This document shows, in pieces, positions 2,212 through 62,945 of a DNA stretch of 64,000 nucleotides. The stretch covers positions 1-64,000 of the forward strand of contig AUJT01000019.1 in the NCBI GenBank assembly GCA_000424365.1, written 5' to 3'. Numbering within the stretch: the stretch's first letter is position 1; every line of letters starts with the position of its first letter. The translations under genes were made by a program, and so were the position numbers. This DNA is from Lachnospiraceae bacterium NK4A144. Its GTDB lineage: Bacteria > Bacillota > Clostridia > Lachnospirales > Lachnospiraceae. The notes below the pieces were generated by a model that did not search any database, had not been told where the DNA came from, and saw nothing but the letters and a program-made list of their open reading frames with translations.

Positions 2212-2384
2212 AAAAGGTGTAAAGAAGATTGCAGCACTTGATTGGGACATAAAACGATAGTAAATCGGAGCTTCCCAGGGGCATCGGATTTATTATACGG
2301 GAGAAATCCCACTGTGTTACAGTTTTTAAATCACTAATGGTCCAAAATGGAATTTGGATTTCAAACACACATGGAGGTAATTTT
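2212..2384 (+). promoter_or_regulatory. Structured flagellin 5' leader with GGA motifs
   Basis: The leader contains a GAAA-capped hairpin (GGGA 2299-2302, TCCC 2307-2310) and a longer pairing of TAAATC (2261-2266) with GATTTA (2287-2292). Just before the start codon are three GGA motifs: ATGGA at 2347, TTGGAT at 2354 and ATGGAGG at 2371. The last one is the Shine-Dalgarno sequence. GGA motifs at a flagellin ribosome binding site are the type of site CsrA occupies in the Bacillus FliW-CsrA-Hag circuit. No cyclic-di-GMP (GEMM) riboswitch signature was seen. Confidence 0.4.
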
Positions 2385-17265: not shown

Positions 17266-17426
17266 TATTTTAGAAATTATGATTTTTAGACTCATTTGAT
17301 GCCGGGGATAGAGGGCAGGTTATACCATATATAAATCTTGTGTGTGAAGAAAATGAATAAAAGATAATTAAAGAGAGACAATTATTGGATGGGGCAAAGA
17401 TAATTTTTTTTTTTGAGGGGATGAAA

Positions 17427-18722: not shown

Positions 18723-18738
18723 GTTTGATGGAGATCAT

Positions 18739-19716: not shown

Positions 19717-19762
19717 AATTTAATTCGATAAATCTGGATAATTTACATGTTTTGATCAACTA

Positions 19763-19807
19763 AAAAGGGCTTCACCCAGATGATCGATCATCTAGAGTGA
19801 CGGCCTT
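19763..19807 (+). terminator. Long imperfect hairpin with perfect 14-bp palindrome
   Basis: GATGATCGATCATC (19779-19792) is a perfect palindrome. It extends outward through TTCAC/GTGA and AAAGG/CCTTT pairings to 19763-19807 and ends in TTT. It lies between the LicD gene and the next LicD fusion. It may be an attenuator or partial terminator, or a protein-binding site. Confidence 0.5.
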
Positions 19808-19828
19808 TACTGTAAGGGGCAAGGAGCT

Positions 19829-29304: not shown

Positions 29305-30084
29305 ATGTGGTATGTGATCCAGGTAAGGACCGGAGAAGAGCAGAAGACGAAATTAATGCTGGATGAAAGGCTTGATCATGAGTATTACAAGGACTGCTTT
29401 ATACCCTTGTATGAGAGTGTACGCCGCAGAAAAGACAGGTGTCTCATCATGATCCGTCGTCTTTTTCCCGGATATATTTTTATAGATACGGACTACCCGG
29501 TAGAAGTTCATAAAGCTTTGAAAAAAATACCTGATTTCACATCCCTGCTCGGCATCAGGGATGAGCCGGATAAAGAGAAGGTTTTTGTTCCAGTAAGCTC
29601 TGAGGATGAAGAATTCTTAGATAGTATCCTCGAAAACGGGATCATGCGGGTGAGCTATGTCCATTTATCCAAAACGAATCAGATAGACCAGGTATTTGGA
29701 CCTCTTGAAAAATACCGGAAATACATAACGAAAATGGAATACCGTCACCGCTATGCAGTTGTAGAAGCGGAGATATTTGGAAAGGCGCGAAAATTGAACT
29801 TTGGTCTCTGGGGAGACGCAGATCCGAGGCTCCCATGGATAGAAGAGATAAAAGCCAGGCATAATTATGTATCAGGTAACGAAGACAGAAGAAAGGATAA
29901 TAACACAGGAATATATCCCGGTGACCGGATAACTTATCAAGAGCTTTATGGAGACAGGATATTCACTGTTGATCAGGTGGATCCATCCCGCAGGATCATT
30001 CGCACTACGGTAGAAATGTTTGGATGCGTGAGAAAGATAGAAATGTATGTGGATGATGTGAGGGTGGTAAATGACGCCATGTGA
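29305..30084 (+). CDS. loaP: LoaP-like NusG paralogue, transcription antiterminator
   Basis: A 259-residue protein. Residues 1-110 are an NGN domain (MWYVIQVRTGEEQKTKLML, RRLFPGYIFIDT). Residues 125-170 form a KOW-like domain (VFGPLEKYRKYITKMEYRHR then AVVEAEIFGKARKLNFGL). LoaP proteins bind RNA polymerase and a leader hairpin to allow read-through of long polysaccharide or antibiotic operons. This one is longer than the usual 170 or so residues. It carries a C-terminal stretch (YPGDRITYQELYGDRIFTVD, then VEMFGCVRKIEMYV) that looks like a second KOW-type barrel. The ATG follows GGGGG at 6 bases. Two TGA stops in a row end it. The likely target is the downstream glycan operon. Confidence 0.85.
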   Translation: MWYVIQVRTGEEQKTKLMLDERLDHEYYKDCFIPLYESVRRRKDRCLIMIRRLFPGYIFIDTDYPVEVHKALKKIPDFTSLLGIRDEPDKEKVFVPVSSEDEEFLDSILENGIMRVSYVHLSKTNQIDQVFGPLEKYRKYITKMEYRHRYAVVEAEIFGKARKLNFGLWGDADPRLPWIEEIKARHNYVSGNEDRRKDNNTGIYPGDRITYQELYGDRIFTVDQVDPSRRIIRTTVEMFGCVRKIEMYVDDVRVVNDAM

Positions 30085-35848: not shown

Positions 35849-37108
35849 TCAGGAAGCCATACAAGGATCATCTTTTATGATATACCCTCGTTGCTTCAAT
35901 AGATTAAGTGCCTGTGAAGTAGTAAGAGTTTTGCTTTCTTTCACAGGTCGGGATTCAAGAAAGCCATTTGGGTTATAAGGCTTTAAATATGATAGTATGT
36001 GCCAGATAGCGGTCAGGATCATACGGCAGATAGCAATAATAGCTTTCTTGTGTCCGCGACGTGCTTTTATACGTCTATAACGATTGGTGAATTCTGGATG
36101 CTTCTTCGATTTAACCAAAGCATTTGCAACTTGTACCAGAACAGGTTTAAAATAGGAACCAGCACGGGAAATCCGAGTTGATTTGATCTTCTGGTTGCTT
36201 TGATCGTTACGAGGACAACATCCTGCCCAAGAGACGAGGTGTTTAGCTGTGGGGAAGACAGACATATCACCACCGATCTCTGAGAGCACTTGAATAGCAG
36301 TAAGTGGATTCTTATCGAATCCGGGAACAGTTCTTATCAGATTAAGCGTAGCCTCATATTTATCACTGAGACGAAAGATTTCCCGTTCTATTTCTGTTTT
36401 GTGCTTTTCCAATTCATCGATGTGATTAAGGCACTGTCTGAGCTTTACTGCTTGTTCCTCGGATATGGCACCATCAACGGCAGCTTGGATTTCTTCAATG
36501 GAAGTCTTGCACCTGCCGTCAACAAAAGGTGCTACATCAAATGTTTCCCCAGGGTGTTGTAAAATTTGCTCCGTGATGGAGCGGGATGATTTACCAAATA
36601 TATCAGAAAAGACATCGTCAAGTTTGAGGTTGGATACGGTAAGACAGTTGTGAGCACGATTCTTCTCGCCGGTAATCATACAGGTGAGCTTGAAACGGTA
36701 TCTTACCAAATCTCTCAGTTGACGGATATCTGCCGGAGGAATGAAGGATGGCTTAACCATTCCGCACATATAGAGATCGCATATCCATTTGGCATCCTTG
36801 CGGTCTGTCTTATTTCCTTTCATCGGCTTGGTATATTTGGGATGGGAAAGCGTAACCCAGAGGTCATGCTTTTCTAGGATATTGAAAACAGGGATCCAAT
36901 ACTTGCCGGTTGATTCCATGCATATATCGTTACAGTCGTATTTAGCAAGCCAGTCACACAGCTCGTTCAAGCCTCTTGTAAAGGAAGAAAAGCGAGCCTG
37001 CTTATACTCCGTGCGATTGTGGGAATCGGTAATGCCGATACAGGCATAGATCCACGTTTTGTGAACATCAAGTCCACAGCAGTTGTTTTTGATGATTTTG
37101 AAAGACAA
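35849..37108 (-). CDS. IS110-family transposase
   Basis: A full-length 419-residue DEDD transposase. The N-terminal RuvC-like domain shows GLDVHKTWIYACI (first Asp), CMESTGKYWIPV (Glu) and KTDRKDAKWICDL (Asp pair). The C-terminal Transposase_20 domain shows LIRTVPGFDKNPLTAI, HLVSWAGCCPRNDQSNQK with the conserved serine, and RISRAGSYFKPVL. It starts at TTG with a perfect AGGAGG at 8-base spacing on the minus strand (37117-37122). All key residues are present, so the element may be active. IS110 enzymes use a bridge RNA encoded in the element's non-coding end. Confidence 0.93.
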   Translation of the reverse strand: MSFKIIKNNCCGLDVHKTWIYACIGITDSHNRTEYKQARFSSFTRGLNELCDWLAKYDCNDICMESTGKYWIPVFNILEKHDLWVTLSHPKYTKPMKGNKTDRKDAKWICDLYMCGMVKPSFIPPADIRQLRDLVRYRFKLTCMITGEKNRAHNCLTVSNLKLDDVFSDIFGKSSRSITEQILQHPGETFDVAPFVDGRCKTSIEEIQAAVDGAISEEQAVKLRQCLNHIDELEKHKTEIEREIFRLSDKYEATLNLIRTVPGFDKNPLTAIQVLSEIGGDMSVFPTAKHLVSWAGCCPRNDQSNQKIKSTRISRAGSYFKPVLVQVANALVKSKKHPEFTNRYRRIKARRGHKKAIIAICRMILTAIWHILSYLKPYNPNGFLESRPVKESKTLTTSQALNLLKQRGYIIKDDPCMAS

Positions 37109-40407: not shown

Positions 40408-40428
40408 TAGAATAAAGATGAAATTGGG

Positions 40429-40504: not shown

Positions 40505-41080
40505 ATGGATAAATATATAAGTGATCTAATAACTACATTAAATAATACTTTATTTAAAAATACATTCAATGATGAGGATTATGATTTTAATGAAGGAATA
40601 AAAGCATTAGTTGATGGTTTCAGTGTAAAGAAAACAGATGGCTCAAAAGTGTTCTTCATTGGCAATGGTGGGAGTGCTGCTATTGCAAGTCACATGACAG
40701 CTGATTTTATGAAGAATGGTGGAATTAATACCTATAGTCTTTATGATACTGCGGTAACTACTTGCATTGGTAATGACTATGGTTATGATCAAGTATTTGC
40801 GCGACCGTTAAGTTTTTTGGCATCTGAAGGTGATCTGCTTGTGGCCATAAGTAGTTCCGGAAAATCCCCAAATATTATCAACGCTATAAAGGCAGCTAGA
40901 GATAAGAAAGTTGATGTATATACTTTTACTGGTTTTGATAGTGATAATCCTGTAAGACAGATGGGGGATATAAATGTATATGTTCCATGTGACAGATATG
41001 GGATAGTAGAGTCGATCCATAATCTAATCCTGCAAGAGATAGTAGACATCATTACAGAAAGAGATGGTGTTCAGATATAA
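40505..41080 (+). CDS. gmhA: Sedoheptulose 7-phosphate isomerase (GmhA-like)
   Basis: A 191-residue SIS-domain protein. KVFFIGNGGSAAIASHMTAD is the phosphosugar-binding signature of GmhA, followed by GNDYGYDQVFARPL, DLLVAISSSGKSPNIINAI and ESIHNLILQEIVDII. GmhA converts sedoheptulose 7-phosphate to D-glycero-D-manno-heptose 7-phosphate. The length is normal. The start at 40505 is chosen by family length; upstream in-frame codons from 40418 lie inside the duplicated terminator. First gene of the operon; its stop abuts the next ATG without a gap. Confidence 0.93.
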   Translation: MDKYISDLITTLNNTLFKNTFNDEDYDFNEGIKALVDGFSVKKTDGSKVFFIGNGGSAAIASHMTADFMKNGGINTYSLYDTAVTTCIGNDYGYDQVFARPLSFLASEGDLLVAISSSGKSPNIINAIKAARDKKVDVYTFTGFDSDNPVRQMGDINVYVPCDRYGIVESIHNLILQEIVDIITERDGVQI

Positions 41081-41635
41081 ATGAAAAGAAGGGCGGTTTT
41101 TCTAGATAGAGATGGAGTATTGATAGAGGAACAAAGTTACATAAAGACTTTGGATGAAATGAATATATATCCATTTACAAGCGATTGTATAAAGAAACTT
41201 CATCAAGCAGGATTCTTGGCAATAGTTATTACAAATCAAAGTGGAGTTGCAAGAGGATATCTGACTGAAGAAACTTTGAAGCAGATGAATACGAAACTCA
41301 AAGAAGAAATCGGAGTTGATGATATTTTCTATTGTCCTCATTATTCAAAGGGAGTAATTGCAAAATATAGTTTTAATTGTATGTGCCGTAAGCCTAATAT
41401 TGGAATGATAGAAAAGGCATGCGATAAATATGAGATAGATTTAAGCAGATCATATTTCATTGGTGATAGAAAAACAGATATTGAAACTGGGAAAAATGCC
41501 GGGGTTAAAACTATACTTTTAAGAACAGGATATGGAAAAGCTGATGAAGCAGTTTCGAATTTTGACTATGCATGCGATGATCTAAGAAATGCTGTTAATA
41601 TTTGTATAAGCGGGTTGGGGGAAAAAGAAAAATGA
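41081..41635 (+). CDS. gmhB: Heptose bisphosphate phosphatase (GmhB-like)
   Basis: A 184-residue HAD-IIIA phosphatase. AVFLDRDGVLIEEQSY contains the catalytic DxD; AIVITNQSGVARGYL is motif II; CMCRKPNIGMIEKA supplies the motif III lysine and zinc cysteine; YFIGDRKTDIETGKNAGVK is motif IV. GmhB removes one phosphate from heptose 1,7-bisphosphate to give heptose 1-phosphate. The length is normal for the family. The stop overlaps the next start (ATGA). Confidence 0.92.
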   Translation: MKRRAVFLDRDGVLIEEQSYIKTLDEMNIYPFTSDCIKKLHQAGFLAIVITNQSGVARGYLTEETLKQMNTKLKEEIGVDDIFYCPHYSKGVIAKYSFNCMCRKPNIGMIEKACDKYEIDLSRSYFIGDRKTDIETGKNAGVKTILLRTGYGKADEAVSNFDYACDDLRNAVNICISGLGEKEK

Positions 41636-42624
41636 TTTCTGTTGTAACAGGCGGATGTGGTTTTATAGGATCACATATGGTAGACAGATTGCTAAAAGAA
41701 GGTCATGAAGTTCGTGTGATCGATAATTTCAGTACAGGTCGTCCAGAAAATCTTGAACATCAAAAAGGAAATAAAAAGCTTAGTATTCTTCAAGCAGATA
41801 TATGTGATAAAGAAAGAATACAACCAGTATTTGATGGGGCAGACTGGGTATTTCATTTTGCAGCACTTGCAGATATAGTTCCTTCAATTCAAAGACCACA
41901 GGATTATTTTCATTCAAATGTAGATGGCACATTCAGTGTACTTGAAGCGGCAAAAAAAGCCGGAATAAAAAGGTTTATGTACACGGCTTCTTCTTCGTGC
42001 TATGGAATTCCCGATAAATTTCCAACAAATGAGAATGCGGATATCAGACCAGAGTATCCTTATGCATTGACAAAAAGGCTTGGTGAAGAACTGGCTCTTC
42101 ACTATTCAAAAGTATATAAACTGCCAGTAGTTTCTTTGTGTCTCTTTAATGTATATGGACCGCGTTCCCGAACATCAGGAACATATGGAGCCGTATTTGG
42201 AGTTTTCCTTGGCCAAAAGCTGGCAGGTAAACCTTACACGGTTGTAGGGACAGGGGAACAGACAAGAGATTTTACATATGTGACGGATATAGTAGACGCA
42301 TTTTATACAGCAGCAAAATCTGATGTTGTAGGAGAAAGGTTTAATGTAGGAAGCGAGCATACATATTCTGTTAACAGGCTTGTAGAGCTTTTAGGAGGAA
42401 CTGAAGAAACGATAGTTCATATTCCAAAAAGACCTGGAGAGCCTGACTGTACGTGGGCAGATACGTCAAAGATAAATAAAGTTCTTGGATGGCATCCGAC
42501 AGTTACCCTTGAAGAGGGGGTCAAGCATATGCTTGATAACATAGATTACTGGAAAAAAGCCCCGGTCTGGACTGAGGATACAATAAAAGAAGCAACTGCT
42601 GATTGGTTCAAATATCTGGGGTGA
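41632..42624 (+). CDS. NAD-dependent sugar epimerase/dehydratase (first)
   Basis: A 330-residue extended short-chain dehydrogenase. TGGCGFIGSHMVDRLL is the NAD-binding glycine motif, FHFAALADIVPSIQ follows, and SSSCYG with YPYALTKRLGEEL give the catalytic Ser and Tyr-x-x-x-Lys. RTSGTYGAVFGVFL and RDFTYVTDIVDAF match the UDP-glucose 4-epimerase/GDP-mannose dehydratase subgroup. The start at 41632 overlaps the gmhB stop and has GGGGGAAAAAG upstream. In this operon it probably epimerises an NDP-heptose or a related sugar; the substrate is inference. Confidence 0.88.
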   Translation: MISVVTGGCGFIGSHMVDRLLKEGHEVRVIDNFSTGRPENLEHQKGNKKLSILQADICDKERIQPVFDGADWVFHFAALADIVPSIQRPQDYFHSNVDGTFSVLEAAKKAGIKRFMYTASSSCYGIPDKFPTNENADIRPEYPYALTKRLGEELALHYSKVYKLPVVSLCLFNVYGPRSRTSGTYGAVFGVFLGQKLAGKPYTVVGTGEQTRDFTYVTDIVDAFYTAAKSDVVGERFNVGSEHTYSVNRLVELLGGTEETIVHIPKRPGEPDCTWADTSKINKVLGWHPTVTLEEGVKHMLDNIDYWKKAPVWTEDTIKEATADWFKYLG

Positions 42625-42642
42625 GAATAGGCTGTGAGGGGA

Positions 42643-44178
42643 ATGGATAAGATAGTAACCAAGGCAGAATTTAAGGAGAAAATTCGGCCACAATTAAAAA
42701 AAGAAAATAAAAAAATAGCCTTGTGTCATGGTGTTTTTGATCTTGTTCATGCAGGCCATATTACTCATCTTGAGCAGGCAAAAGAAATGGCAGACGTACT
42801 GGTAGTCTCTATAACTGCAGCTGAATTTGTAAGAAAAGGTCCCGACAGACCATATTTCAATGATGAACAGAGACTTAAGTTTCTTTCGGCCATAGAATAT
42901 GTAGATTACTGTATGGTGTCAGAAGGCTATACGGTAGATGACATAGTAGAAGCAGTAGAACCTGACTTTTATATAAAAGGTGCGGAATATGCCGATGAGA
43001 ACGCTGATGTAACTAAAAATATACGTCTTGAAAGAGAACTGGTTGAAAAACATGGTGGATCTGTACGGTATACGACTGGTGAAGTATACAGTTCAACAAA
43101 GCTGATAAATATAGGGTTGTCAGCACTTCCAAAAGATGTTGTCTGTTTCATGGCAAACTTTAAGAAAAGACATGACATGGAAGAAATCCTATCTCTGACT
43201 GACAAGATACAGGACATGAAGGTACTTGTGATTGGAGATGTGATAATTGACAGATATACATATTGCAGACTTCAAGGACTTATGAGTAAGGATGCCGGCT
43301 ATTCTGCAAGAGTGAATTCTGATGAGATGCACCTTGGTGGAAGCCTTGCTATAGCGAGACATTTATCATCATTCTGTGATAATGTAACACTTCTGTCAGC
43401 TATTGGATCTGAAACTGAAATACAGGAGCTTTTGGATAAAAATCTTTCAAGTAAAATTAATACAGAATTTGTAAAAAGTGAAGTATTTCCAACAATCATA
43501 AAACACAGATACCTGACCAGGGATGCCAAACGCGAGGAATATAGGAAGATACTGGCAGTAACAAATATTCCGGAAAAACCTCGATATGACAGAAAAACAT
43601 GGGAAAGTATAGTCGAATATTTAAAAAATAATATAGAGAAATTTGATGTGGTATTCCTGTGTGATTTTGGTCATGGTTTGATTAAAAATAGGATAAGAGA
43701 TATCGTTCAGGAAAAATCAAAATTCCTGGTTCTAAACTGCCAGACAAATTCATCGAATCATGGAAAGAATATAATTACGAAATATCATAGAGCAGACAGA
43801 TTTTCATTAGATCAGGCGGAATTAGGAATGGCATTTCCAGAGGTTTCAGATGATGATGAAGACGAAGCTTTGAAAATGCTTTGTAAGCATTTAAACGGTA
43901 AGGGGTGGCTTACAAGAGGATCTGATGGTGCAAAATCTTGTGATGATGGCGATATATATTCATCACCGGCATTTACTCTAAGTGTAAAGGATACTATTGG
44001 TGCGGGAGATGCATTTTATTCCGTATCAGGAATATATGCTGCAGCAGGAGCATCAATGGAAATGGGACTTTTCCTAGGAAATATAGCAGGAGCACTTGGG
44101 ACCAATATAGTAGGAAACAGGGAATCAGTTGAAAAGGTAGATGTATTGAAATTTGCAGGTACGCTTTTGAATATATAA
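42643..44178 (+). CDS. Sugar nucleotidyltransferase-PfkB kinase fusion (HldE-like, reversed order)
   Basis: A 511-residue bifunctional protein. Residues 1-165 are a RfaE-type nucleotidyltransferase: CHGVFDLVHAGHITHLE with GVFDxxHxGH, GPDRPYFNDEQRLKFLSA, YIKGAEYAD and YSSTKLIN. Residues 190-511 are a PfkB-type kinase: VLVIGDVIIDRY, LGGSLAIARHL and DTIGAGDAFYSVSG with the catalytic Asp. E. coli HldE has kinase first and nucleotidyltransferase second, so the order here is reversed. The kinase glycine motif lacks the usual Asn. With GmhA and GmhB it would make an NDP-heptose. GTG at 42634 is an alternative start. Confidence 0.85.
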   Translation: MDKIVTKAEFKEKIRPQLKKENKKIALCHGVFDLVHAGHITHLEQAKEMADVLVVSITAAEFVRKGPDRPYFNDEQRLKFLSAIEYVDYCMVSEGYTVDDIVEAVEPDFYIKGAEYADENADVTKNIRLERELVEKHGGSVRYTTGEVYSSTKLINIGLSALPKDVVCFMANFKKRHDMEEILSLTDKIQDMKVLVIGDVIIDRYTYCRLQGLMSKDAGYSARVNSDEMHLGGSLAIARHLSSFCDNVTLLSAIGSETEIQELLDKNLSSKINTEFVKSEVFPTIIKHRYLTRDAKREEYRKILAVTNIPEKPRYDRKTWESIVEYLKNNIEKFDVVFLCDFGHGLIKNRIRDIVQEKSKFLVLNCQTNSSNHGKNIITKYHRADRFSLDQAELGMAFPEVSDDDEDEALKMLCKHLNGKGWLTRGSDGAKSCDDGDIYSSPAFTLSVKDTIGAGDAFYSVSGIYAAAGASMEMGLFLGNIAGALGTNIVGNRESVEKVDVLKFAGTLLNI

Positions 44179-44187
44179 AGGTGAATT

Positions 44188-45249
44188 ATGGCAGACAATA
44201 TTAGGATGGATTCACATAAACTCATATATCATCCGGAAGTGGTGACCAGATGGCTTAATGGTGAAAATATTTATCCGGTTGAGGTAGAGATATCTCCAAG
44301 CGGTGCATGTAATCATAGATGTGTGTTTTGTGCGGTAGACTATTTGGGATATAAACCGGTATTTCTTGATAAGGATGTAATACTAAGAGATATCAGACAT
44401 ATGAGTGCCAAAGGACTAAAGAGTGTGATTTGTTCTGGTGAGGGAGAGCCAATGCTCAATAAAGACATGCCTGAAATAGCAAATCAGATCAAGGCATGTG
44501 GAGTAGATGTGGCAATGAGTTCGAATGCTGCATTGTTTACCCAAGATGATGCCAAAGAATGTCTTGGTGCATTTACGTGGATCAGATTTAGTATTGCCAG
44601 TTTTGAAGAAAAATCATATTACGAAATCCAGAGAGCTCCTAGAGGAGACTTGGATAAAGTAAAAATGAATTTAGAAGATGCAGTAAGGATAAAAAAAGAT
44701 AGAAAGTATAAAACAACTCTAGGAGTGCAGTGTCTTTTATTGCCTCAAAATATGGATCAGCTTCCAGACATGGCTAATAGCCTAAGAAAAATAGGTGTTG
44801 ATTATCTTACAATAAAGCCTTATTCACAGCATTTACATAGTGATAATAAATTTCAAATCGATTATGAAAAGTTGATAGATTTTGAAAAAGAAATTAAAGA
44901 ATACGAAACAGATGAATTTTCAATCTATTTTAGAGCGAATGCGATGAAAAAAATGCATCGTGAGAAATGTTATAAACAGTGTTTGGGATTACCATTTATG
45001 GCGCATATAGATGCGTATGGAAATGTATGGCCTTGTGTTGCACATATAGGAACAGATAAATACAAATATGGAAATATAAACGAGAATACATTTGAAGAAA
45101 TATGGAATAGTGAAAAGAGACAAGAGGTAAACAAATTGATCAATTCATCAGATATAAATGAAATATGCAGAGAGGCCTGCAGACTTGATGAGATTAATAA
45201 ATACCTGAATGAACTAAAAAATCCTGGAGAACATGTGAATTTTATATGA
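44188..45249 (+). CDS. Radical SAM/SPASM protein (first of tandem pair)
   Basis: A 353-residue radical SAM enzyme. The [4Fe-4S] motif is CNHRCVFC (Cys 41, 45, 48, CX3CX2C). ICSGEGEPML is the SAM-binding GE motif. The C-terminal part has further cysteines (CYKQCLGLPF, NVWPCVAHI, ICREACRLDE) in a SPASM/twitch pattern for an auxiliary cluster. The N-terminus, LIYHPEVVTRWLNGENIYPV, is shared with the next protein. Radical SAM enzymes of sugar loci perform epimerisation, dehydration or C-C chemistry. It follows the nucleotidyltransferase-kinase gene by 9 bases. Confidence 0.88.
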   Translation: MADNIRMDSHKLIYHPEVVTRWLNGENIYPVEVEISPSGACNHRCVFCAVDYLGYKPVFLDKDVILRDIRHMSAKGLKSVICSGEGEPMLNKDMPEIANQIKACGVDVAMSSNAALFTQDDAKECLGAFTWIRFSIASFEEKSYYEIQRAPRGDLDKVKMNLEDAVRIKKDRKYKTTLGVQCLLLPQNMDQLPDMANSLRKIGVDYLTIKPYSQHLHSDNKFQIDYEKLIDFEKEIKEYETDEFSIYFRANAMKKMHREKCYKQCLGLPFMAHIDAYGNVWPCVAHIGTDKYKYGNINENTFEEIWNSEKRQEVNKLINSSDINEICREACRLDEINKYLNELKNPGEHVNFI

Positions 45250-45256
45250 GGTCGGT

Positions 45257-46327
45257 ATGAATAGAAATGAAACTCCATATAGTCAATTGAAGATTTTTTA
45301 TCATCCAGAAATATTAGAGCATCTATTAAATGGAGAAAGATGTGTTCCGGTTTATATTCGCATAAAGCCTACAAATAAGTGTAATCATAACTGTAATTAC
45401 TGTCATTATAGAAATTCATATCTTGATCTGGATGAGTATGATCCGAATGATGAGATACCAAGAGAAAAAATGCTTGAAACAGTAGCCTGCATGAAAGAAC
45501 TTGGGGTAAAGGCAGTTACATTTAGTGGAGGTGGAGAACCACTTCTTTATCCATATATAGAAGAAACCTTCGAAGAGGTGCTTGATGCTGGAATTGATCT
45601 GTCAATCATTACTAATGGAAGCCTGTTAAAAGGCAAAAGAGCAGAGCTTTTAGCGAAAGCAAAATGGGTAAGAATAAGCATAGAGTCAGTTAATGATGAT
45701 GAATATTGTAAAATTAGGGGAATAAAAAAAGGAAGTTTTGATGATCTTTGCGAGAATATAACGCGCTTTGCAGAGATAAAAGAAAAATATTGTGAGTTAG
45801 GCGTAAATATGGTTGTAACACAGGATAACCATTCTCAGGTGACGGAAATGGGAAGGCTTATGAAAAAGTTGGGAGCCAATCATGTAAAGTATTCACCTAT
45901 GTGTACTAATGATACCTATGGTTATCATGAAAGCTTTAAGGATGAAGTTTCAGAAGCTTTGAGTAAGCTGCAGAAAGAGCTTAACGATGATCATTTTAGA
46001 ATTATAGATCTTTATACTGGCGATTTTTCAGACAGTGTTATTTTCGAGAGACAATATAAAGAATGCCCATTAAAAGAATTTATCTGTGGAATAGGAGCAA
46101 ACTCAAAAGTATATTTTTGTCAGGATAAAGCATATTTATCTGATGGATGTATTGGAGACTTAAAGACTACTACATTTACAGAACTGTGGAAATCAGAAAA
46201 AACAACTGAATTATTTAGAAGTTTTGATGCAAGAACAATCTGTAAACAACACTGTGTACATGATAGTAGGAACGAGCTGATTAATTCATTTCTAAAAATG
46301 GATAGAAATCATATTAACTTTATATAA
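45257..46327 (+). CDS. Radical SAM/SPASM protein (second of tandem pair)
   Basis: A 356-residue paralogue of the preceding protein. The cluster motif is CNHNCNYC (Cys 42, 46, 49); TFSGGGEPLLYP is the SAM-binding motif. The C-terminal SPASM-like cysteines are in CPLKEFICGI, KVYFCQDKAY and ICKQHCVHD. It shares the N-terminal pattern IFYHPEILEHLLNGERCVPV with its neighbour. Two related but diverged copies suggest two successive radical steps or a heterodimer. Followed after 8 bases by the transketolase N-subunit gene. Confidence 0.88.
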   Translation: MNRNETPYSQLKIFYHPEILEHLLNGERCVPVYIRIKPTNKCNHNCNYCHYRNSYLDLDEYDPNDEIPREKMLETVACMKELGVKAVTFSGGGEPLLYPYIEETFEEVLDAGIDLSIITNGSLLKGKRAELLAKAKWVRISIESVNDDEYCKIRGIKKGSFDDLCENITRFAEIKEKYCELGVNMVVTQDNHSQVTEMGRLMKKLGANHVKYSPMCTNDTYGYHESFKDEVSEALSKLQKELNDDHFRIIDLYTGDFSDSVIFERQYKECPLKEFICGIGANSKVYFCQDKAYLSDGCIGDLKTTTFTELWKSEKTTELFRSFDARTICKQHCVHDSRNELINSFLKMDRNHINFI

Positions 46328-46335
46328 GAGGAAAC

Positions 46336-47157
46336 ATGATAGATACAGAAGCAAAAGCAAAAGAAATTAGACAGGAAATCTATAAAATAGCTAATCATGC
46401 CGGTGGGGGTCATATGGCGGGTTCATTTTCAGCAACGGATGTGATAAGCGTTCTTTATTTTGGTGATGTTCTTAAATATGATTCTAGTAATCCGGCATGG
46501 GATGGTAGAGATAGGTTTATTTTAAGTAAAGGACATTCCTGCTATGCATTATACGCAGCATTAGGACTTGCAGGGTATTTCTCACTTAATGAGTTAAGAA
46601 CAGTTGGGAGACCTGGGTCTTCATTTGGCGGTCACCCTAAAATTTGGGAAATACCGGGAGTTGAAGCTTCTACAGGAGCATTGGGGCATGGATTATCGCT
46701 TGGAATAGGTATGGCATATGCATTAAAGCAAGATGAAAAGAATAATCATGTGTATGTAATGCTCGGCGATGGAGAGTGTCAGGAAGGTTCGATATGGGAA
46801 GGAGCATTATCAGCTCCGACATTGGAGTTGTCAAACCTTACGGTTATAGTTGATTACAATAAACTTCAGGCGATGGATGAGCTTGAAAAAATAGTTCATA
46901 TGAAACCTTTCGCTGATAAGTGGAGGAGTTTTGGTTGGAATGTAAAGGAGATAAATGGTCATGACCATCAGGAAATTCGTGAAGCACTTCTTGTAAGAGA
47001 TATTAGTAAGCCTACGCTTATAGTTTCTAATACAATAAAGGGCAAAGGTGTTTCATTTATGGAGAATGTTCCGATATGGCATTACAGGATGCCAAATGAA
47101 TCAGAACTTCCTATGCTTATGGAAGAGCTGGAATTGACAGAGGAGGACTTGAAATAA
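46336..47157 (+). CDS. Transketolase N-terminal subunit
   Basis: A 273-residue thiamine-diphosphate-binding half of a split transketolase. GGGHMAGSFSATDVISVLYF, SKGHSCYALYAALGLAGY, GHPKIWEIPGVEASTGALG and GDGECQEGSIWEGAL (the TPP-binding GDG) are diagnostic. It needs the next gene product for activity. In this operon a transketolase could make sedoheptulose 7-phosphate for GmhA or transfer a two-carbon ketol group directly to an unusual sugar. Strong translational arrangement with its partner (3-base gap). Confidence 0.92.
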   Translation: MIDTEAKAKEIRQEIYKIANHAGGGHMAGSFSATDVISVLYFGDVLKYDSSNPAWDGRDRFILSKGHSCYALYAALGLAGYFSLNELRTVGRPGSSFGGHPKIWEIPGVEASTGALGHGLSLGIGMAYALKQDEKNNHVYVMLGDGECQEGSIWEGALSAPTLELSNLTVIVDYNKLQAMDELEKIVHMKPFADKWRSFGWNVKEINGHDHQEIREALLVRDISKPTLIVSNTIKGKGVSFMENVPIWHYRMPNESELPMLMEELELTEEDLK

Positions 47158-47160
47158 CCC

Positions 47161-48075
47161 ATGCGTAGTGCATACTTGGAAACTTTACATGATCTGGCAG
47201 AAAAAGATAAACGTGTATATGCCCTTATTTCAGATAATGGTGCAATTGTATATGACAAATTCAGAGCAGATTTTCCAAAACAATATTTAAATCTGGGAAT
47301 ATCCGAGGCAAATATGATTGGTATGGCAGCGGGGATGGCATCATGTGGAAAAATCCCCTTTGCATATACTATTGGTGCTTTTCTTGCGTATAGGGCATTT
47401 GAGTTTATAAGAAATGATGTATGTCTTCAAAATCAGAATGTAAAGATAGTTGGAACAGGAGCGGGAGAAGTGTATAGCGCATTGGGGCCAACACATCATT
47501 CAACGGAAGATTTAGGTGGGCTAAGGGCTCTTCCAAATCTAACAATATTAAATCCTGCTTCACCAATGGAAGTAAAAAAAGCAACTCTTGCAGCTTATGA
47601 GTATGATGGACCGGTGTATATGAGGTTGGGGACTAATAGAGAGGCAGAAATATATAAGGAAAACTATGATTTTGAAATTGGTAAGGGCATAACTTTACGT
47701 GAAGGAAACGACCTGACTGTTATTTCAACCGGAAATATATGCAATGATGTGCTTGCTGTAACTGATGATTTAACGACAAAAAATTGCAGTATAAGAGTTT
47801 TGAATATTCATACTTTGAAACCATTCGATGAAGAGTTAGTAAAGAAAGCTATTGATGAGACCAGAGCAATACTTACTGTTGAGGATCATAATATCATAGG
47901 CGGAATTGGAAGTGCTGTTTCCGAAGTGATAGCTGAATATGGTAAGGGTATTAAATTCGAACGTCTAGGTTTGCACAGTTTTTCTAAAGGATATGGCAGT
48001 CATGAGGAAGTAAAAATAGCAAATGGTGTTGGAAGAACACAGATACGGGAAGCTATTTTACAGATGATGGAATAG
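47161..48075 (+). CDS. Transketolase C-terminal subunit
   Basis: A 304-residue partner of the preceding protein with the pyrimidine-binding and C-terminal domains. YLNLGISEANMIGMAAGMAS holds the catalytic Glu of TPP activation. FAYTIGAFLAYRAFEFIRND, THHSTEDLGGLRALPN and PVYMRLGTNREAE are characteristic. DLTVISTGNICND begins the last domain. The length and split form are normal for Firmicutes. Substrate in this operon is inferred, not seen. Confidence 0.92.
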   Translation: MRSAYLETLHDLAEKDKRVYALISDNGAIVYDKFRADFPKQYLNLGISEANMIGMAAGMASCGKIPFAYTIGAFLAYRAFEFIRNDVCLQNQNVKIVGTGAGEVYSALGPTHHSTEDLGGLRALPNLTILNPASPMEVKKATLAAYEYDGPVYMRLGTNREAEIYKENYDFEIGKGITLREGNDLTVISTGNICNDVLAVTDDLTTKNCSIRVLNIHTLKPFDEELVKKAIDETRAILTVEDHNIIGGIGSAVSEVIAEYGKGIKFERLGLHSFSKGYGSHEEVKIANGVGRTQIREAILQMME

Positions 48076-48090
48076 ATCAGGATTGAAAAT

Positions 48091-48753
48091 ATGGCATATA
48101 TAGATTTTGTTTCAGAACTGCATAAAGCAACAAAGCGTGATTATATAGGCAGAGTTACAAGTGATGACAAAGCGGAGTGTGCAGTTATTGCCAAACAGTA
48201 TGGTTATGATTACTGGGATGGTGACAGGAAATATGGGTATGGCGGCTATCATTACGATGGCAGGTGGCGTAGCGTTGCTGAGAAGATGGCAGATTATTAT
48301 AAATTAAAGCCCGGAATGAAAATTCTTGATGTTGGCTGTGGAATGGCGCATCTTCTTTATGAATTTACTCAGGTAGTTCCAGGTATAGAAGTCACAGGAA
48401 TTGATATTTCAGAGTATGCATTGGAGCATGCAAAAGAAGAAATTCGTGACAGGCTGGAAAAAGGAAATGCAGTAAGACTTCCTTTTGATGATAACAGTTT
48501 TGATCTTGTTATTTCTCTTACAACATTACATAACCTTAAGATATTCGATCTTAAAAAAGCAGTTCAGGAGATAGAAAGAGCAAGTAAAGGAAACAGCTAC
48601 ATCATGGTAGAGAGTTTCCGTAATGACAAAGAAGAAGTGAATATGCTTTATTGGCAGCTTACCTGTGCCAGCTATTATGCGGTGGATGAATGGGAATGGC
48701 TGTATAAAGAGTGGGGATATACGGGAGATTATAGTTTTATCTTTTTTGAATGA
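48091..48753 (+). CDS. Class I SAM-dependent methyltransferase
   Basis: A 220-residue methyltransferase. MKILDVGCGMAHLLYEFTQV is motif I, TGIDISEYALEHAK is the acidic strand 2, GNAVRLPFDDNSFDLVISL is motif II and III. The N-terminal YWDGDRKYGYGGYHYDGRW occurs in methyltransferases of sugar-nucleotide loci. It probably methylates the sugar made by this operon. ATG after a moderate RBS, 15 bases after the transketolase gene. Confidence 0.87.
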   Translation: MAYIDFVSELHKATKRDYIGRVTSDDKAECAVIAKQYGYDYWDGDRKYGYGGYHYDGRWRSVAEKMADYYKLKPGMKILDVGCGMAHLLYEFTQVVPGIEVTGIDISEYALEHAKEEIRDRLEKGNAVRLPFDDNSFDLVISLTTLHNLKIFDLKKAVQEIERASKGNSYIMVESFRNDKEEVNMLYWQLTCASYYAVDEWEWLYKEWGYTGDYSFIFFE

Positions 48754-48771
48754 AAAAAATGGGAGTTTAAT

Positions 48772-49632
48772 TTGAACATAGCGATAACGGGAGCAGCTGG
48801 TTTTATTGGTTCTAAATTGGGGGACTACTTTGAAAAGAAAGGTCATAGTGTATATAGAATAGTCCGGAGTCCTAATAATAAAGAAAAATGTTTTACATGT
48901 AATATAGAACAAGGAATAAATCTTGATGCGAACATAGATGTCATAATACATGCTGCTTCTGCTAATCCAAATAGTGGCGCCTGCATTGAAGATTATATAA
49001 TAGGAAATATTGATACAACAAGAAAAGTTCTCAGATACGTTTTGAAACAAGGAATAAAAAAAATAATATATTTTGGAGCTGTGTCATCATACGGAAAGAT
49101 AAAAGGTGAACTGAATGGTAGTTCGTATCATATAGAGCCTGAAGAATATGGATTAACAAAATTTTTGGCACAAAAGCTTATAAGTAATTCAGGTATTTCG
49201 AATAGAATACTGATTATGCCGGGGGTTATTGGAAGAAATTGTAATACTAATTGGATATTAAATACAACAAGAAAACTTTATAAGAATGAATTTGTATCAA
49301 TATACAATTCTGAAGGTATGTTTAATAATATCGTCAGTGTGGATGATGTGTGCAAATTTGTTGTAAGTCTTTGCGAAAGAGGATTTGAAGGATCACAGAC
49401 ATATTTACTTTCAGCAAAAGACGTAATTATAGTTCGCGATTTAATTGAAAAGATAAAGAATAAATTGGGGTCGCTTTCTAAAGTTGAGTACGATGGTAAA
49501 AATGATCAGGGGTTCTATATTGACAGCAAAGATGCGGTGGCGGCAGGTTTTTTATCGAAATCAATTGATGAGTTGATAGATGAAATATGTGATGAAGTTA
49601 TAAGACGAGAAAAAGGGGGAGAAGTGATTTGA
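48772..49632 (+). CDS. NAD-dependent sugar epimerase/reductase (second)
   Basis: A 286-residue extended SDR starting at TTG, with GGGAG at 6 bases. [19 protein letters not shown] is the NAD-binding motif; [13 protein letters not shown] follows; YFGAVSSYG and [13 protein letters not shown] give Ser and Tyr-x-x-x-Lys. It is shorter than the first epimerase and has the proportions of reductases such as RmlD or WcaG. It is likely a 4-reductase or epimerase finishing the sugar. Overlaps the next gene (TTGA). Confidence 0.85.
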
Positions 49633-50735
49633 AAGCTATAATTCTTGGAGGAGGAGTAAGCGGGTGTGTAGCTGCAAGAGAACTTACACAAAGAAATTTT
49701 GAAGTTACTTTAATAGAGAAGAATAATTACCTTGGAGGAGGATGTCATACATTTTTCTGGGGAGGCCATCCTTATACTGAGGGACCACGCCCGTTACATG
49801 TTATAAATGACAGAATTTTTAATTACATAAATGATATTGTTCCAATGAGATTATTTCATTTATATCTTGATACATATATCGAACAGGACAGAAGCTTTTA
49901 TTCTTTTCCCATTCATTGGGATGATATTCAGCAGATGCCGGATAAAGAGAAAATTCTTAAAGAGCTTGATGACCTACCAGAACATAATGACGCTAAAAAC
50001 CTTGAGGATGGTTGGCTTAATGCTGTAGGTCCTACATTATATGAAAAGTATGTTAAAACCTATACAGAAAAAATGTGGGAGATTGAGAGTAACAAGGTTT
50101 TTGAGGATTATGCATGGACAGTAAAGGGACGACCGATTCAGAAAGGCGACAGGACGGTTGAACTTGCAACAGGAAAGCCTGATCACGCATATCCTATAGA
50201 AGAAACAGGTTATAACAGGTTCTTTGAGTACTGTGTAAAGGATACAAAAGTCATTCTTGGTAAAGAAATCGAAAAAGTAAATCTTAAGAAGAAAGCGGTG
50301 TATTTAGAAGGTGAGGAGTTTTGTGCTGATATTATTATATCCACAATAGCTTTAGATGATCTAATGGGTAATGAGTTTGGTAAATTACGATATATGGGGA
50401 GGGATTTTTATCCTATTGTGTTTCCTGTGGAGCATCTGTTTAAGGATGGTCACCATTTTATTCATTATCCTAACTGTGAAAAATATACCCGCATAGTTGA
50501 ATATAAGAATATTACAGGACATGTTTCTAAAGATTCCCTGGTTGTTATGGAGATACCATCACATAGTAATAAATTGTATCCTTACAAGATTAAATCAGAA
50601 ACGGAAAAAGCAGAGAAATATATTAATAGTCTTCCGGATGGAATTTATTCAATAGGACGTCTTGGAACATATAGGTATTTGAACATAGGACAGTGTTTTG
50701 AAAATGTATGGGAATTGATGGAAAGAATTTTTTAG
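49629..50735 (+). CDS. UDP-galactopyranose-mutase-like flavoenzyme
   Basis: A 368-residue FAD protein. [20 protein letters not shown] is the Rossmann dinucleotide-binding motif; [16 protein letters not shown] follows. [28 protein letters not shown] and the C-terminal [19 protein letters not shown] correspond to conserved UDP-galactopyranose mutase segments (TEYKHLT and GRLxxYKYYxMDQ). Mutases of this family interconvert pyranose and furanose NDP-sugars. Here the substrate could be an NDP-heptose, giving a heptofuranose (inference). The TTG start overlaps the previous stop. Last gene of the compact operon; a 60-base gap follows. Confidence 0.85.
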
Positions 50736-53926: not shown

Positions 53927-54349
53927 ATGGAAATGTATAGAAAATTAAACTTCAAAGATATGGGAGATGATAGAGGCAAACTTGTTGTAGTCGAGGGGAA
54001 CATAGATATACCTTTTACAATACAGAGAGCTTTTTATATGTATGGATCTGATAAAAACGTTGTAAGGGGTAGACATGCAAATATTAATTCTGAATTTGTT
54101 TTGATTAATGTTGCAGGTTCGTCAAAAATTTTAATTACAGATGGAAATAGAAAAGAAATTGTGGAATTGTCTAAGCCAATGGAAGGGGTCTATATTCCCA
54201 AAATGATTTGGAAGGAGATGTATGATTTTTCTTCGGATTCAGTTCTTTTAGTTCTTGCGAGTACACATTATGACGGTCAAGAGTATCTTAGAAGTTATGA
54301 ACAATATAATATGCTTATGAAGTTTTTTAAGGAAAAAAAAGATGATTGA
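53927..54349 (+). CDS. dTDP-sugar 3,4-ketoisomerase (FdtA/QdtA-like cupin)
   Basis: A 140-residue cupin of the WxcM/FdtA type. [39 protein letters not shown] and [18 protein letters not shown] are family motifs. The usual GHHAH-type motif appears as RGRHAN, so one of the common histidines is replaced. FdtA/QdtA convert dTDP-4-keto-6-deoxyglucose to the 3-keto sugar for Fuc3N or Qui3N. It overlaps the aminotransferase gene by 8 bases, the usual pairing for this pathway. Confidence 0.88.
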
Positions 54350-55445
54350 ATACGAAAATCTTAAAAAGCTAAATGAAAGATTTTACACAGAATACAAAGA
54401 TGCTTTTGGAAAAGTTTTAGATAGTGGACGGTTTATTCTTGGACAGGAAGTGGATAGTTTCGAGAAAGAATTTGCTAACTATTGTGGTGCAAAATATTGT
54501 ATAGGAGTAGCGAATGGACTTGAGGCACTAACTATTGCAATAAAAGCTTTTGAATTTAAGGAAGGTTCTGAAATAATTGTGCCTTCAAATACATATATAG
54601 CAACAATACTTGCCGTTATTCACGCCGGAATGGTTCCTGTACTAACAGAGCCCGATATTCTGACATATAATTTAACGTTAGAGGGAATAGAAAAAAAGAT
54701 AACTTCTAAAACCGTTGCAATTCTGCCTGTTCATTTGTATGGCAATCCAGTGTATATGTCTGAAATAATGCAATATGCACATGATTATAATTTAAAGGTT
54801 ATAGAGGATGCTGCTCAGGCACATGGTGCGGAAGTCGATGGGCATAAAATCGGCTCTTTTGGTGATGCAACTTGCTTCAGCTTTTATCCAACTAAGAATC
54901 TTGGTGCGTTAGGAGACGGTGGGGCAATAACCACAGATGATTGCGAGTTTGCAAATAGGATAAGATCATATAGAAATTATGGTTCATCTATAAGATACAA
55001 AAATGATTACATAGGATATAATTCACGGCTGGATGAATTACAGGCGGCTTTTCTGCGAATTAAACTAAGACATTTGGATGAGATAACGAATCACAAAAGA
55101 TATCTTGCAAAAATCTATCATGAGAATTTGGATGAAACACAATATATAATGCAGCATATTCGAGAGGAATGCAAAAGTGTTTTTCATGTTTTTAACATTC
55201 GAACGAACAAACGAGATAGATTAAAGGAATATTTAGCCCAAAAAGGAATATACACCGATATACATTATCCAACATCTCCAATTCATCAGAAAGCGTTAAA
55301 AGGAATGTTCAATACAGAGTTAACGCCAATATCGGATGAAATACACAAGACCATATTGAGTTTACCAATATCTCTAATTCATAATGAGTCGGACATTGGA
55401 GACGTTTGTGATGCTCTTAAGGAGTTTGAGAATATTGAAGGTTAA
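54342..55445 (+). CDS. DegT/DnrJ/EryC1 sugar aminotransferase (FdtB/QdtB-like)
   Basis: A 367-residue PLP aminotransferase. [19 protein letters not shown] holds the PLP-binding Asp, and [17 protein letters not shown] contains the PLP lysine (Lys 185). [31 protein letters not shown] and [11 protein letters not shown] are typical of the family. With the FdtA-like cupin it would make a dTDP-3-amino-3,6-dideoxyhexose. An acetyltransferase to complete Fuc3NAc/Qui3NAc and the RmlA/RmlB enzymes are not in the window. Confidence 0.92.
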
Positions 55446-61322: not shown

Positions 61323-62945
61323 ATGCGATCACCAAAAGACATGCAAATTATTTTAATAGATGTTACAAACGCGTGCAATGAGAAATGTTCGAATTGCACG
61401 CGTTTTTGTGGTAATCATAAAAAGAATTTTTTTATGAGTATAGAGACATTTAAGCGTGCAGTTGATTCCATGCAGGGGTTTGAAGGACTGGTTGCACTGA
61501 TTGGCGGAGAACCGACCTTACATCCTAAATTTAAGGAATTTGCAGAATATCTTCAAAAAATATATGGCAAAAATCCAAAAGCTGAAAGGCTTGCCTATCC
61601 TCAGAAGGATTTTATAAAGGAACTGCTGCATGAGGAATTTGATAACCACAGATTACATGAGTATGAAGATGGTCATAAGACATTTGAACGTACAGGACCG
61701 GGAATATATTCCAATATGAGTCCAACATACCGTAAGTACCAGGAATTGTGTGCAGATACATTTCATGTACAGTTTTTAAATGATCATATTAATCCTTCTT
61801 TCCATCAGCCAGGTCTTGTATCACGTATTGATTTAGGTATATCAGATGAAGATTGGATTCCTATGAGAGATAATTGCTGGCTTCAAAATGCATGGAGCGC
61901 TACGATAACGCCGAAAGGCGCTTTTTTTTGTGAGGTAGCAGCTGCTATGGATATGCTTTTTGATGGACCCGGAGGATGGCCAATTGAACCGGGATGGTGG
62001 AAGAGAGAACCAAAAGACTTTGGAAATCAGCTAAAATGGTGTGAGTTTTGTGGTTTTGCACTTAGTACATTTATGAGAGAATCGTCAGATGAAATAGATG
62101 ATGTATCTCTGACTTTGTATGAGAAACTTAAAGCAGTAGATTCTCCAAGAATGAAAGCAGGCAGGACACATCTTATAGATATTAAAGATGGTGTAATATC
62201 CGAAGATAGTAAAGCGTCAGGTAAGAGATTTTCAGCGACACAGAAATATGTGGAACATTATGAAGATAGATTTAATGCTGAAAGTTCGTTGCTTTATGAG
62301 TATGAATTTGATGTATACACATGTTTAGACAAGTCTGATGATCAGGCATTTGGTGAGTTTTTAAACAGTTTAATCATCAAATCTAAAGGGTGGATACTTC
62401 TATTAGAGAATGCAGTAAACGAAGAAGAAATTAATACAATAAAAACATTAATGAAAGAATGTGTTCTGAATCCCGGCACTCTTCATATAGGTAATGGCTT
62501 ATATTTCTTCCATAAAAATGCACTGTCTTTAATGAATTATGGTTTTGATAGGATCGCACGAATTGAAGAATTTGAAGATTTGTTAACTATATGGGAAAAA
62601 ACTAAGCAGATAAAAATTGGAGAATATCTTCCTGCATGGAGACGGGATTCAATAATTCCAGGAAAAAGATATGCTATTTGGGGTATGGGCGTTGCAGGAA
62701 GTTTTCTTGCAGATGCAGTAAAATGTTCGGGCGGAAAATATGTATTTGTTGTGGATAGAGATCCAGTTAAACAAGGAACGGACTTTTATGGAGCTACTGC
62801 ATATGCGCCGGAATATCTAAAAGAACATGGCGAAGAATATGACTATCTTTTAATAGGTCATTATTCGAAATTTGATGAGATAAAGGATGAGGCACTTAAT
62901 CTTGGAGTTCCAAAAGGGCGGATTATTATGCCATATGAGGTTTAA
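61323..62945 (+). CDS. Radical SAM protein with C-terminal Rossmann module
   Basis: A 540-residue protein. The cluster motif is CNEKCSNC (Cys 18, 22, 25), followed by GGEPTLHPKF. A second cysteine group lies around CWLQNAWSATITPKGAFFCE and WCEFCGFAL, probably for an auxiliary cluster. Residues 445-540 are a GxGxxG module (YAIWGMGVAGSFLADAVK, YVFVVDRDPVKQG, YDYLLIGHYSKFDEIK). Unlike the tandem pair at 44188-46327 it is embedded among glycosyltransferases and contains the extra module. Substrate unknown; modification of the glycan or a nucleotide sugar is likely. Confidence 0.82.
   Translation: MRSPKDMQIILIDVTNACNEKCSNCTRFCGNHKKNFFMSIETFKRAVDSMQGFEGLVALIGGEPTLHPKFKEFAEYLQKIYGKNPKAERLAYPQKDFIKELLHEEFDNHRLHEYEDGHKTFERTGPGIYSNMSPTYRKYQELCADTFHVQFLNDHINPSFHQPGLVSRIDLGISDEDWIPMRDNCWLQNAWSATITPKGAFFCEVAAAMDMLFDGPGGWPIEPGWWKREPKDFGNQLKWCEFCGFALSTFMRESSDEIDDVSLTLYEKLKAVDSPRMKAGRTHLIDIKDGVISEDSKASGKRFSATQKYVEHYEDRFNAESSLLYEYEFDVYTCLDKSDDQAFGEFLNSLIIKSKGWILLLENAVNEEEINTIKTLMKECVLNPGTLHIGNGLYFFHKNALSLMNYGFDRIARIEEFEDLLTIWEKTKQIKIGEYLPAWRRDSIIPGKRYAIWGMGVAGSFLADAVKCSGGKYVFVVDRDPVKQGTDFYGATAYAPEYLKEHGEEYDYLLIGHYSKFDEIKDEALNLGVPKGRIIMPYEV

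Follow-up and report, generated by a model that had tools for sequence, protein, structure and literature searches.

Analysis of the first 64,000 nucleotides of contig AUJT01000019.1 of Lachnospiraceae bacterium NK4A144 (forward strand; this whole stretch is called the window) indicated that eleven genes, all on the plus strand, form a compact operon at positions 40505-50735. The gaps between the genes range from -4 to +18 bases and the next gene downstream is set off by a 62-base gap. Genes were named using Pfam and NCBIfam models, with the curated NCBIfam cut-offs as family thresholds, and the eleven tightly spaced genes and their families (Table 1) were as listed in a preliminary description of this DNA. 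The operon combines genes of the nucleoside diphosphate (NDP)-heptose families with genes for two radical S-adenosylmethionine (SAM) proteins, rSAM1 and rSAM2, and for a split transketolase, a thiamin diphosphate (ThDP) enzyme.

Two other genomes of the genus carry the gene set, G394 at one locus and G402 at two loci in different places. The nine leading operon genes were found in unchanged order in G394 and in one of the G402 loci, which indicates that the operon is a real unit and not a chance assembly; at the other G402 locus a protein of cluster c12 replaces sdr1, the first short-chain dehydrogenase/reductase (SDR). Among these relatives sdr2 and the mutase-like gene were present in G394 only, so that the last two operon genes are regarded as add-ons. 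The longest open reading frame of the gmhA-like gene begins at 40418; the start at 40505 gives 191 aa and matches the 189-194 aa of three same-genus relatives. A scan of promoters and terminators returned about as many sites as shuffled sequence.

Table 1. Genes of the operon in the window, with their numbers among 80 loci, as determined by clustering, for the accessory and peripheral genes.
Feature	Coordinates	Strand	Basis or remark
gmhA-like sugar-phosphate isomerase (SIS)	40505..41080	+	Pfam/NCBIfam; metal-ligand signature H-D-E-Q vs canonical H-E-Q-H
gmhB-like HAD phosphatase	41081..41635	+	Pfam/NCBIfam; DRDGV and zinc-loop motifs
sdr1, NDP-sugar epimerase-type SDR	41632..42624	+	ASSSCYG ... 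YPYALTK motifs; start corrected to 41632
Nucleotidyltransferase (N-terminal) and PfkB sugar kinase (C-terminal) fusion	42634..44178	+	HldE domains, reversed order
rSAM1, radical SAM, one four-Cys auxiliary-cluster site	44188..45249	+	DesII-like fold, BtrN-like C-terminal domain; module hallmark
rSAM2, radical SAM/SPASM paralogue, accessory	45257..46327	+	32/80 loci
tkN, split transketolase N-terminal (ThDP-binding) half	46336..47157	+	Pfam/NCBIfam, structure-relative alignment
tkC, split transketolase C-terminal half	47161..48075	+	Phosphosugar-site residues lost
SAM-dependent methyltransferase, accessory	48091..48753	+	19/80 loci
sdr2, second SDR, accessory	48772..49632	+	11/80 loci
Uridine diphosphate (UDP)-galactopyranose-mutase-like flavoprotein, peripheral	49629..50735	+	GLF domain; 3/80 loci

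When named genomes were scanned with an rSAM1 alignment, 122 relatives were found, of which the best 80 were kept and 42 left out; all locus counts refer to these 80. The loci were translated, clustered and mapped, and sdr1 was counted at an identity of at least 55%. Three genomes are present twice (L017/L014, L030/L015 and L042/L016), and the residue counts include these and the window. A gene for a ThDP enzyme was found one to six genes past rSAM1 in 72 of the 80 loci, which makes it the strongest partner of rSAM1. It always follows rSAM1 in the reading direction of the latter (L024 alone has it on the other strand), directly next to rSAM1 in 41 loci and at most two genes away in 59.

Three kinds of ThDP enzyme occupy this position: a split transketolase (38 loci), a dehydrogenase E1-alpha/beta pair (30 loci; E1_dh, and Transket_pyr with Transketolase_C, in the one locus assigned by Pfam) and a YerE/acetolactate-synthase type (four loci; TPP_enzyme N, M and C). 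No locus among the 80 carries two kinds. The nearest solved relative of the YerE type is chain 8rph (3.4e-111), which we take to be the YerE-like JanthE, and acetolactate synthase ranks second (1.2e-76). On the rSAM1 tree the kind of ThDP enzyme changes 14 times at the fewest, a rough count since the tree was built by a quick procedure, 27 of its 79 inner branches have a support below 80, and the L010 row was scored by the ordinary transketolase of its plasmid; the sister loci L072 and L088 differ in kind. Thirteen loci first seemed to have no ThDP gene, and these include the four of the YerE type as well as L027, where a transketolase fragment lies at the contig end; of the eight left, four retain less than 2 kb past rSAM1. 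Three plasmid loci with distant radical SAM relatives (24-29% identity) showed no ThDP cluster and are taken as a specificity control.

The occurrence of three enzyme families in one slot leads us to expect one reaction type. In the part of a 2025 review consulted here (PMC12247030), tertiary alcohols are formed on ketones, sugars included, by YerE-like decarboxylases, alpha-KADH2 and split transketolases. The YerE-like enzymes are described there for lipopolysaccharide sugars, YerE and ErwE leading to yersiniose and erwiniose, and alpha-KADH2 (E1 alpha/beta) for the two-carbon (C2) branches in the antibiotic sugars of aldgamycin, kibdelomycin and trioxacarcin. For split transketolases the same part of the review offers no more than a proposal, concerning miharamycin and amipurimycin, and it mentions 13 putative ketone-type sequences, all from Streptomycetes and none of them studied in vitro (PMC12247030). 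The ThDP enzyme beside rSAM1 belongs to one of the three ketone-branching classes, and its partner sugar would be a ketone. The C2-branched NDP-sugar pathways have the same three classes beside nucleotide-sugar genes; their ketone is supplied by keto-deoxy-sugar routes or a proposed oxidoreductase (PMC12247030, same part), whereas the candidate ketone maker of the recurrent gene set described here, the module, is a radical SAM enzyme. The module differs also in its heptose-type sugar part and in that the ThDP classes swap within one gene module. From gene comparison, the module would work like these known pathways.

The preliminary description had suggested that the transketolase supplies sedoheptulose 7-phosphate, a role that the active-site residues of the enzyme do not favour. 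At the positions of the human transketolase set R318, S345, H416, D424, Q428 and R474 (from the part of PMC8016368 consulted), tkC reads R-I-G-L-H-T. Among 40 module transketolase rows the H416 position is Gly in 38 and the D424 position Leu in 34, while the R474 position is Thr in 23, Lys in eight, Asn in two, Arg in two and unaligned in five. S345, H416, D424 and R474 are presumably the phosphate-binding residues. The other split transketolase of the host (contig C41), whose genome is 4.09 Mb, keeps R, H, D, H and R, with Thr or Ala at the S345 position depending on the alignment. A Streptomyces transketolase with lysW and lysX as its annotated neighbours reads RLHYHR. In Solidesulfovibrio, the ordinary transketolase, transcribed away from rSAM1, reads RGHDHR, and a second one, next to genes for a methyltransferase and a radical SAM protein, reads RGGLHK; a viral copy reads RGALHK. 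In tkN the GDG ThDP motif and the aligned catalytic His residues are conserved. The closest solved relatives of both halves are the chains of the Carboxydothermus split-chain transketolase (6yak, 6yaj), which has the same two-gene architecture but retains the H416, D424 and R474 equivalents that tkC has lost. As judged by these alignments, the module transketolases retain the ThDP machinery and not the phosphosugar site, which speaks against sedoheptulose 7-phosphate synthesis and favours a donor that lacks a phosphate, together with a different acceptor.

These residues bear on one alternative, namely an ordinary NDP-heptose operon in which GmhA receives its sedoheptulose 7-phosphate from the transketolase and the remaining genes are accessory decoration. 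Its isomerase, phosphatase, kinase and nucleotidyltransferase families, gathered in one operon, are indeed those of the ADP/GDP-heptose route (GmhA, HldE and GmhB), and no other GmhA-model match was found in the host genome at E 0.001. Against it, the phosphosugar site lost in tkC is mostly kept in the other split transketolase of the host, and the slot is filled in 34 of the 80 loci by E1- or YerE-type enzymes, neither of which is known for sedoheptulose 7-phosphate synthesis. The isomerase is likewise discordant. At the positions of E68 and Q175, all 56 module isomerase rows have D and E, as against E and Q in all 20 canonical paralogues (5lu7 numbering; we take H64, E68, Q175 and H183 of GmhA to be the metal and catalytic residues). 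The module signatures are H-D-E-H (30/56) and H-D-E-Q (26/56), and the canonical one is H-E-Q-H (20/20). An ordinary NDP-heptose as sole product would leave rSAM1 and the ThDP enzyme unexplained. We rejected this explanation as the leading one because of the transketolase residues and the three-class replacement, and regard it as quite unlikely.

The activation genes are nevertheless only distantly related to those of the known route. The isomerase scored 97.6 bits against the 209.45 of TIGR00441, a strict cut-off that any copy reaches in only four of 19 genomes, and the fusion scored 151.8 bits against a curated cut-off of 521; with scores so far below the cut-offs, both are considered divergent relatives. 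In the genomes searched, eight of nine low-scoring isomerase copies carry the module signature, and in eight of 19 a copy with this signature occurs alongside a canonical GmhA. The fusion has its active-site motifs (HAGH, KGPDR and GAGDAF), in the domain order opposite to that of HldE, where the kinase is N-terminal and the nucleotidyltransferase C-terminal. Where a fusion and a separate nucleotidyltransferase occur in the same locus, the fused domain lacks the last His of HxGH in ten of ten cases, and the separate enzyme shows HxGH in ten of 12 copies; the other two are the L049 copy and a second one in L048, whose HPGI may belong to the truncated beginning of a fusion gene. The L075 fusion also lacks the last His, and no separate nucleotidyltransferase was clustered at that locus. 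The pattern of loss suggests that the activation step is under selection. Near the fusion gene some loci have, instead of sdr1, the DHS/ArgZ-like protein c12 (e.g. L049:6383-7336), which occurs in 18 of the 80 loci. The 55 loci with a fusion divide into 28 with sdr1, 17 with c12 and ten with neither, none having both, and the exchange requires four changes at the fewest on the same rSAM1 tree, again a rough count. Fisher p-values computed for the gene co-occurrences take no account of how the loci are related and do not serve as proof here. Comparison of c12 with solved structures gave weak matches (best 1.2e-4 over 68 residues), and it is only suggestive that sdr1 and c12 do the same step.

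rSAM1 and rSAM2, both matched by radical SAM and SPASM models, share about 30% identity. CxxxCxxC and four further Cys are invariant in all 42 rSAM1 rows, and Cys 42, 46, 49, 270, 288, 329 and 333 in the 28 rows of rSAM2. rSAM2 was found with transketolase or YerE-type enzymes and, like the methyltransferase, in none of the 30 E1-type loci. The closest solved structure to both, over nearly the full length, is DesII, a radical SAM deaminase of thymidine diphosphate (TDP)-desosamine that also dehydrogenates TDP-D-quinovose and acts on a secondary carbinol, C3'. The differences are an identity of 16-18%, an rSAM1 score of 50.9 bits with the DesII model (cut-off 450 bits), and another gene context. 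The auxiliary-cluster domain of rSAM1 has its best match in BtrN, the 2-deoxy-scyllo-inosamine dehydrogenase, although the whole protein is more like DesII. BtrN acts on the secondary carbinol of an aminocyclitol, not of a nucleotide sugar. rSAM1 is a candidate for the making of a ketone on a nucleotide sugar.

Another reaction for rSAM1 was considered, in which it would be an epimerase, dehydratase or deaminase acting on a nucleotide sugar, like NeoN, AprD4 or DesII proper, with the ThDP enzyme at an unrelated step; NeoN and AprD4 are radical SAM examples of an epimerase and a dehydratase. The DesII-like fold leaves the reaction unfixed, and DesII itself deaminates its biosynthetic substrate. 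The tight linkage of rSAM1 to whichever ThDP class is present, through at least 14 changes, and the BtrN-like auxiliary domain make this reading improbable in our view. A further possibility is that rSAM1 and rSAM2 are maturases of ribosomally synthesised and post-translationally modified peptides (RiPPs) that stand by chance in a sugar operon, since the peptide-acting SkfB, SuiB and CteB are also close in fold and profile searches. The operon holds no precursor peptide gene and its gaps of -4 to 18 bases leave no room for one, so that the radical SAM pair with a nearby precursor, which the preliminary description had considered as an objection, was not found. Full-length matches to RiPP and other radical SAM models, among the best 25 of 40 and of 64, were all far below cut-offs: the top scores of the two proteins, 81.4 and 88.6 bits, were to a tungsten-cofactor maturase model (cut-off 380), with RiPP models lower among the matches listed. 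The linkage to sugar genes extends across phyla and viral contigs. Peptide maturation was rejected on the gene gaps and model scores and is highly improbable.

We infer the substrate, the position of the ketone, the donor, the product and its use as follows. The GmhA-like isomerase, the PfkB kinase domain, the GmhB-like phosphatase, which would remove the C7 phosphate, and the nucleotidyltransferase domain would yield an NDP-aldoheptose or a close relative, which sdr1 probably epimerises. This nucleotide sugar would lose a hydrogen at a carbinol carbon to rSAM1, whose auxiliary Fe-S cluster would accept the electron, and a ketone would result, a step likened to that of DesII on TDP-quinovose and of BtrN on its cyclitol. 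At the ketone a two-carbon unit would be added by the ThDP enzyme, in this operon a split transketolase turned to a new use, and the product would be a branched C9 sugar bearing a tertiary alcohol. Its branch or ring would be tailored by the methyltransferase, rSAM2, sdr2 and the mutase-like enzyme before the sugar is transferred to a surface glycan, which may be on flagellin. On balance we favour, from sequence comparison, such a pathway to an activated branched-chain sugar through an rSAM1 ketone and ThDP branching as the function of the operon core. The same gene linkage and replacement pattern would also fit a chain lengthening, in which rSAM1 turns a primary alcohol, e.g. that at C7 once GmhB has acted, into an aldehyde, and extension of this aldehyde by two carbons on the ThDP enzyme gives a linear C9 sugar. 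The C7 hydroxyl is freed by GmhB and aldehydes are commonly taken by ThDP ligases, but GmhB is present in only 18 of the 80 loci, the carbinol targeted by DesII, C3', is secondary, as is that of BtrN, and the three ThDP classes are those covered for ketone acceptors in the part of the review cited above (PMC12247030); a linear product therefore appears unlikely.

Several observations weigh against the branching pathway. The isomerase signature is unlike that of true GmhA, and the carbon number of the sugar is accordingly uncertain. The heptose genes are not always local, the fusion being present in 55, GmhA in 51 and GmhB in the above 18 of the loci, and in 15 of the 25 genomes that lack a local fusion a whole-genome search returned weaker HldE-like matches only. 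In the fold comparison the lead of DesII over the peptide-acting SkfB and SuiB is only about 2 Z units for rSAM1; for rSAM2 it is about 1 Z over SkfB, which the sequence profile ranks first. Four loci (L023, L025, L026 and L095) retain about 10 kb past rSAM1 and have no ThDP gene. A plasmid of Azospirillum oryzae (L011) carries a fusion gene, a 62% identical sdr1 and an SIS gene in the neighbourhood of a distantly related radical SAM gene (29%), with no ThDP cluster within 21 kb, perhaps a heptose-type route alone. Finally, most of the 80 loci are metagenome bins, of which those named Fretibacterium (L029) and Prevotella (L039) may, as a guess, be mis-binned, and the locus set was sampled via rSAM1 itself. 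In L023, L025 and L026 a DegT aminotransferase gene adjoins the 3' side of rSAM1, as it does, together with a transketolase, in L022, and in the former three the presumed keto sugar may be aminated rather than branched. The other genomes without a local fusion have one elsewhere, full-length in nine (ten matches, E at most 1e-140) and cut off in one (2.0e-51). Cluster c14, taken from its sequence to be a heptosyltransferase-family (GT9) protein, occurs in twelve loci, none with a fusion gene; the Pfam GT9 assignment was obtained for the viral L167 protein only. We read this as a module that uses heptose from a local source or from elsewhere.

Near the host rSAM1 is rare and patchy: with the genome of the host itself counted, it was detected in three of 48 genomes of the genus (E 1e-30), one of 391 of the class (E 1e-40) and three of 398 of the phylum (E 1e-80). 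Within the best 80 of the 122 relatives in named records the nearest are from Lachnospiraceae. According to record titles the loci come, among others, from Lachnospiraceae, Selenomonas, Nitrospirae, Deltaproteobacteria (Desulfovibrio, Geobacter), Omnitrophota, Elusimicrobia, Planctomycetes, Hydrogenedentes and one archaeal assembly, Methanoperedens; carriers of the module include Lachnospiraceae bacterium MA2020 (L017) and Selenomonas ruminantium ATCC 12561 (L041). The alignment-based scan revealed rSAM1 also on seven viral contigs (L164-L170); a viral scan with the rSAM1 sequence alone gave zero matches, and phage records gave distant radical SAM matches only (six records; best 22% identity at full length). 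On these contigs the module is abridged, to rSAM1 with a shortened E1 alpha and beta in L164, L165, L167 and L170, rSAM1 with a transketolase in L169, and a YerE-type enzyme split over two overlapping frames in L168; in L166, which has rSAM1, a ThDP enzyme was not found. L165 and L168 also carry PfkB, nucleotidyltransferase and GmhA genes. The L168 YerE-type copy has CDG for GDG, and the four genome copies keep GDG; CDG is given as a mark of JanthE in the consulted part of PMC12247030. In the Solidesulfovibrio plasmid pDCAR1 (L010, L172) the module is in two pieces, of which one contains an ordinary transketolase and the second a transketolase of the module type. A gene for a DJ-1/PfpI-family protein lies close to rSAM1 in a YerE-type locus (L079:11071-11589) and on a viral contig (L166:10384-11016).

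Searches of the open-licence literature of PubMed Central, aimed at the module and at its parts, gave no description of the module; subscription papers, including those behind the transketolase list of the review, lie outside this scope. The wider proposal, of a mobile and undescribed module, spread over numerous bacterial phyla and present also in one archaeal assembly and in bacteriophages, that makes C2-branched nine-carbon sugars by a radical SAM/ThDP relay on NDP-heptose, with three ThDP classes recruited repeatedly to one step (at least 14 changes on the tree) and a radical SAM enzyme replacing a sugar oxidoreductase, is offered tentatively, with somewhat less than even confidence. The dedicated path to an undescribed nucleotide sugar, the radical SAM pair included, that the preliminary description envisaged is supported by the gene comparisons. 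Its methylated furanose is a weak description of the core, given the numbers of the methyltransferase and mutase-like genes in Table 1; the furanose was dropped as the main theme on the latter. The mutase-like protein has the GLF domain and keeps the equivalents of Y155, W160, R280, R343 and Y349 of UDP-galactopyranose mutase (presumably Klebsiella numbering), but it scores 111.2 against 303.75 bits (TIGR00031), has Asn for D351 and is rarely in the module.

Upstream of the operon the window carries a flagellin gene (2337-3245; Flagellin_N and Flagellin_C) followed by glycosyltransferases with DUF3880, and it looks like a flagellin or surface glycosylation island. This flagellin gene and the numerous glycosyltransferases make it likely that the sugar is destined for a surface glycan, perhaps one on flagellin. 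The region 17385-21700 encodes a protein with cytidylyltransferase and phosphoenolpyruvate mutase parts (17385-18722) and then two LicD proteins, which suggests phosphonate-decorated glycans. A NusG-like protein, perhaps a dedicated antiterminator, is encoded ahead of the second sugar cluster (29305-30084), and an IS110-family transposase gene lies on the minus strand at 35849-37108. Downstream of the operon, a gene for an FdtA-type isomerase adjoins one for a DegT aminotransferase (53927-55445), a second, amino-deoxy-sugar pathway, and a divergent radical SAM protein of 540 aa is encoded at 61323-62945.

If correct, the proposed relay would be a new entry to the branched high-carbon sugars of surface polysaccharides and antibiotics. 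It would also provide a plausible ketone acceptor for split transketolases outside the Streptomycetes, their sole source in the consulted part of PMC12247030. The radical SAM family of rSAM1, so far unassigned, would gain a testable reaction, the formation of a ketone on a nucleotide sugar, and sugars so far unseen are predicted in Lachnospiraceae, Nitrospirota, Omnitrophota and phages.

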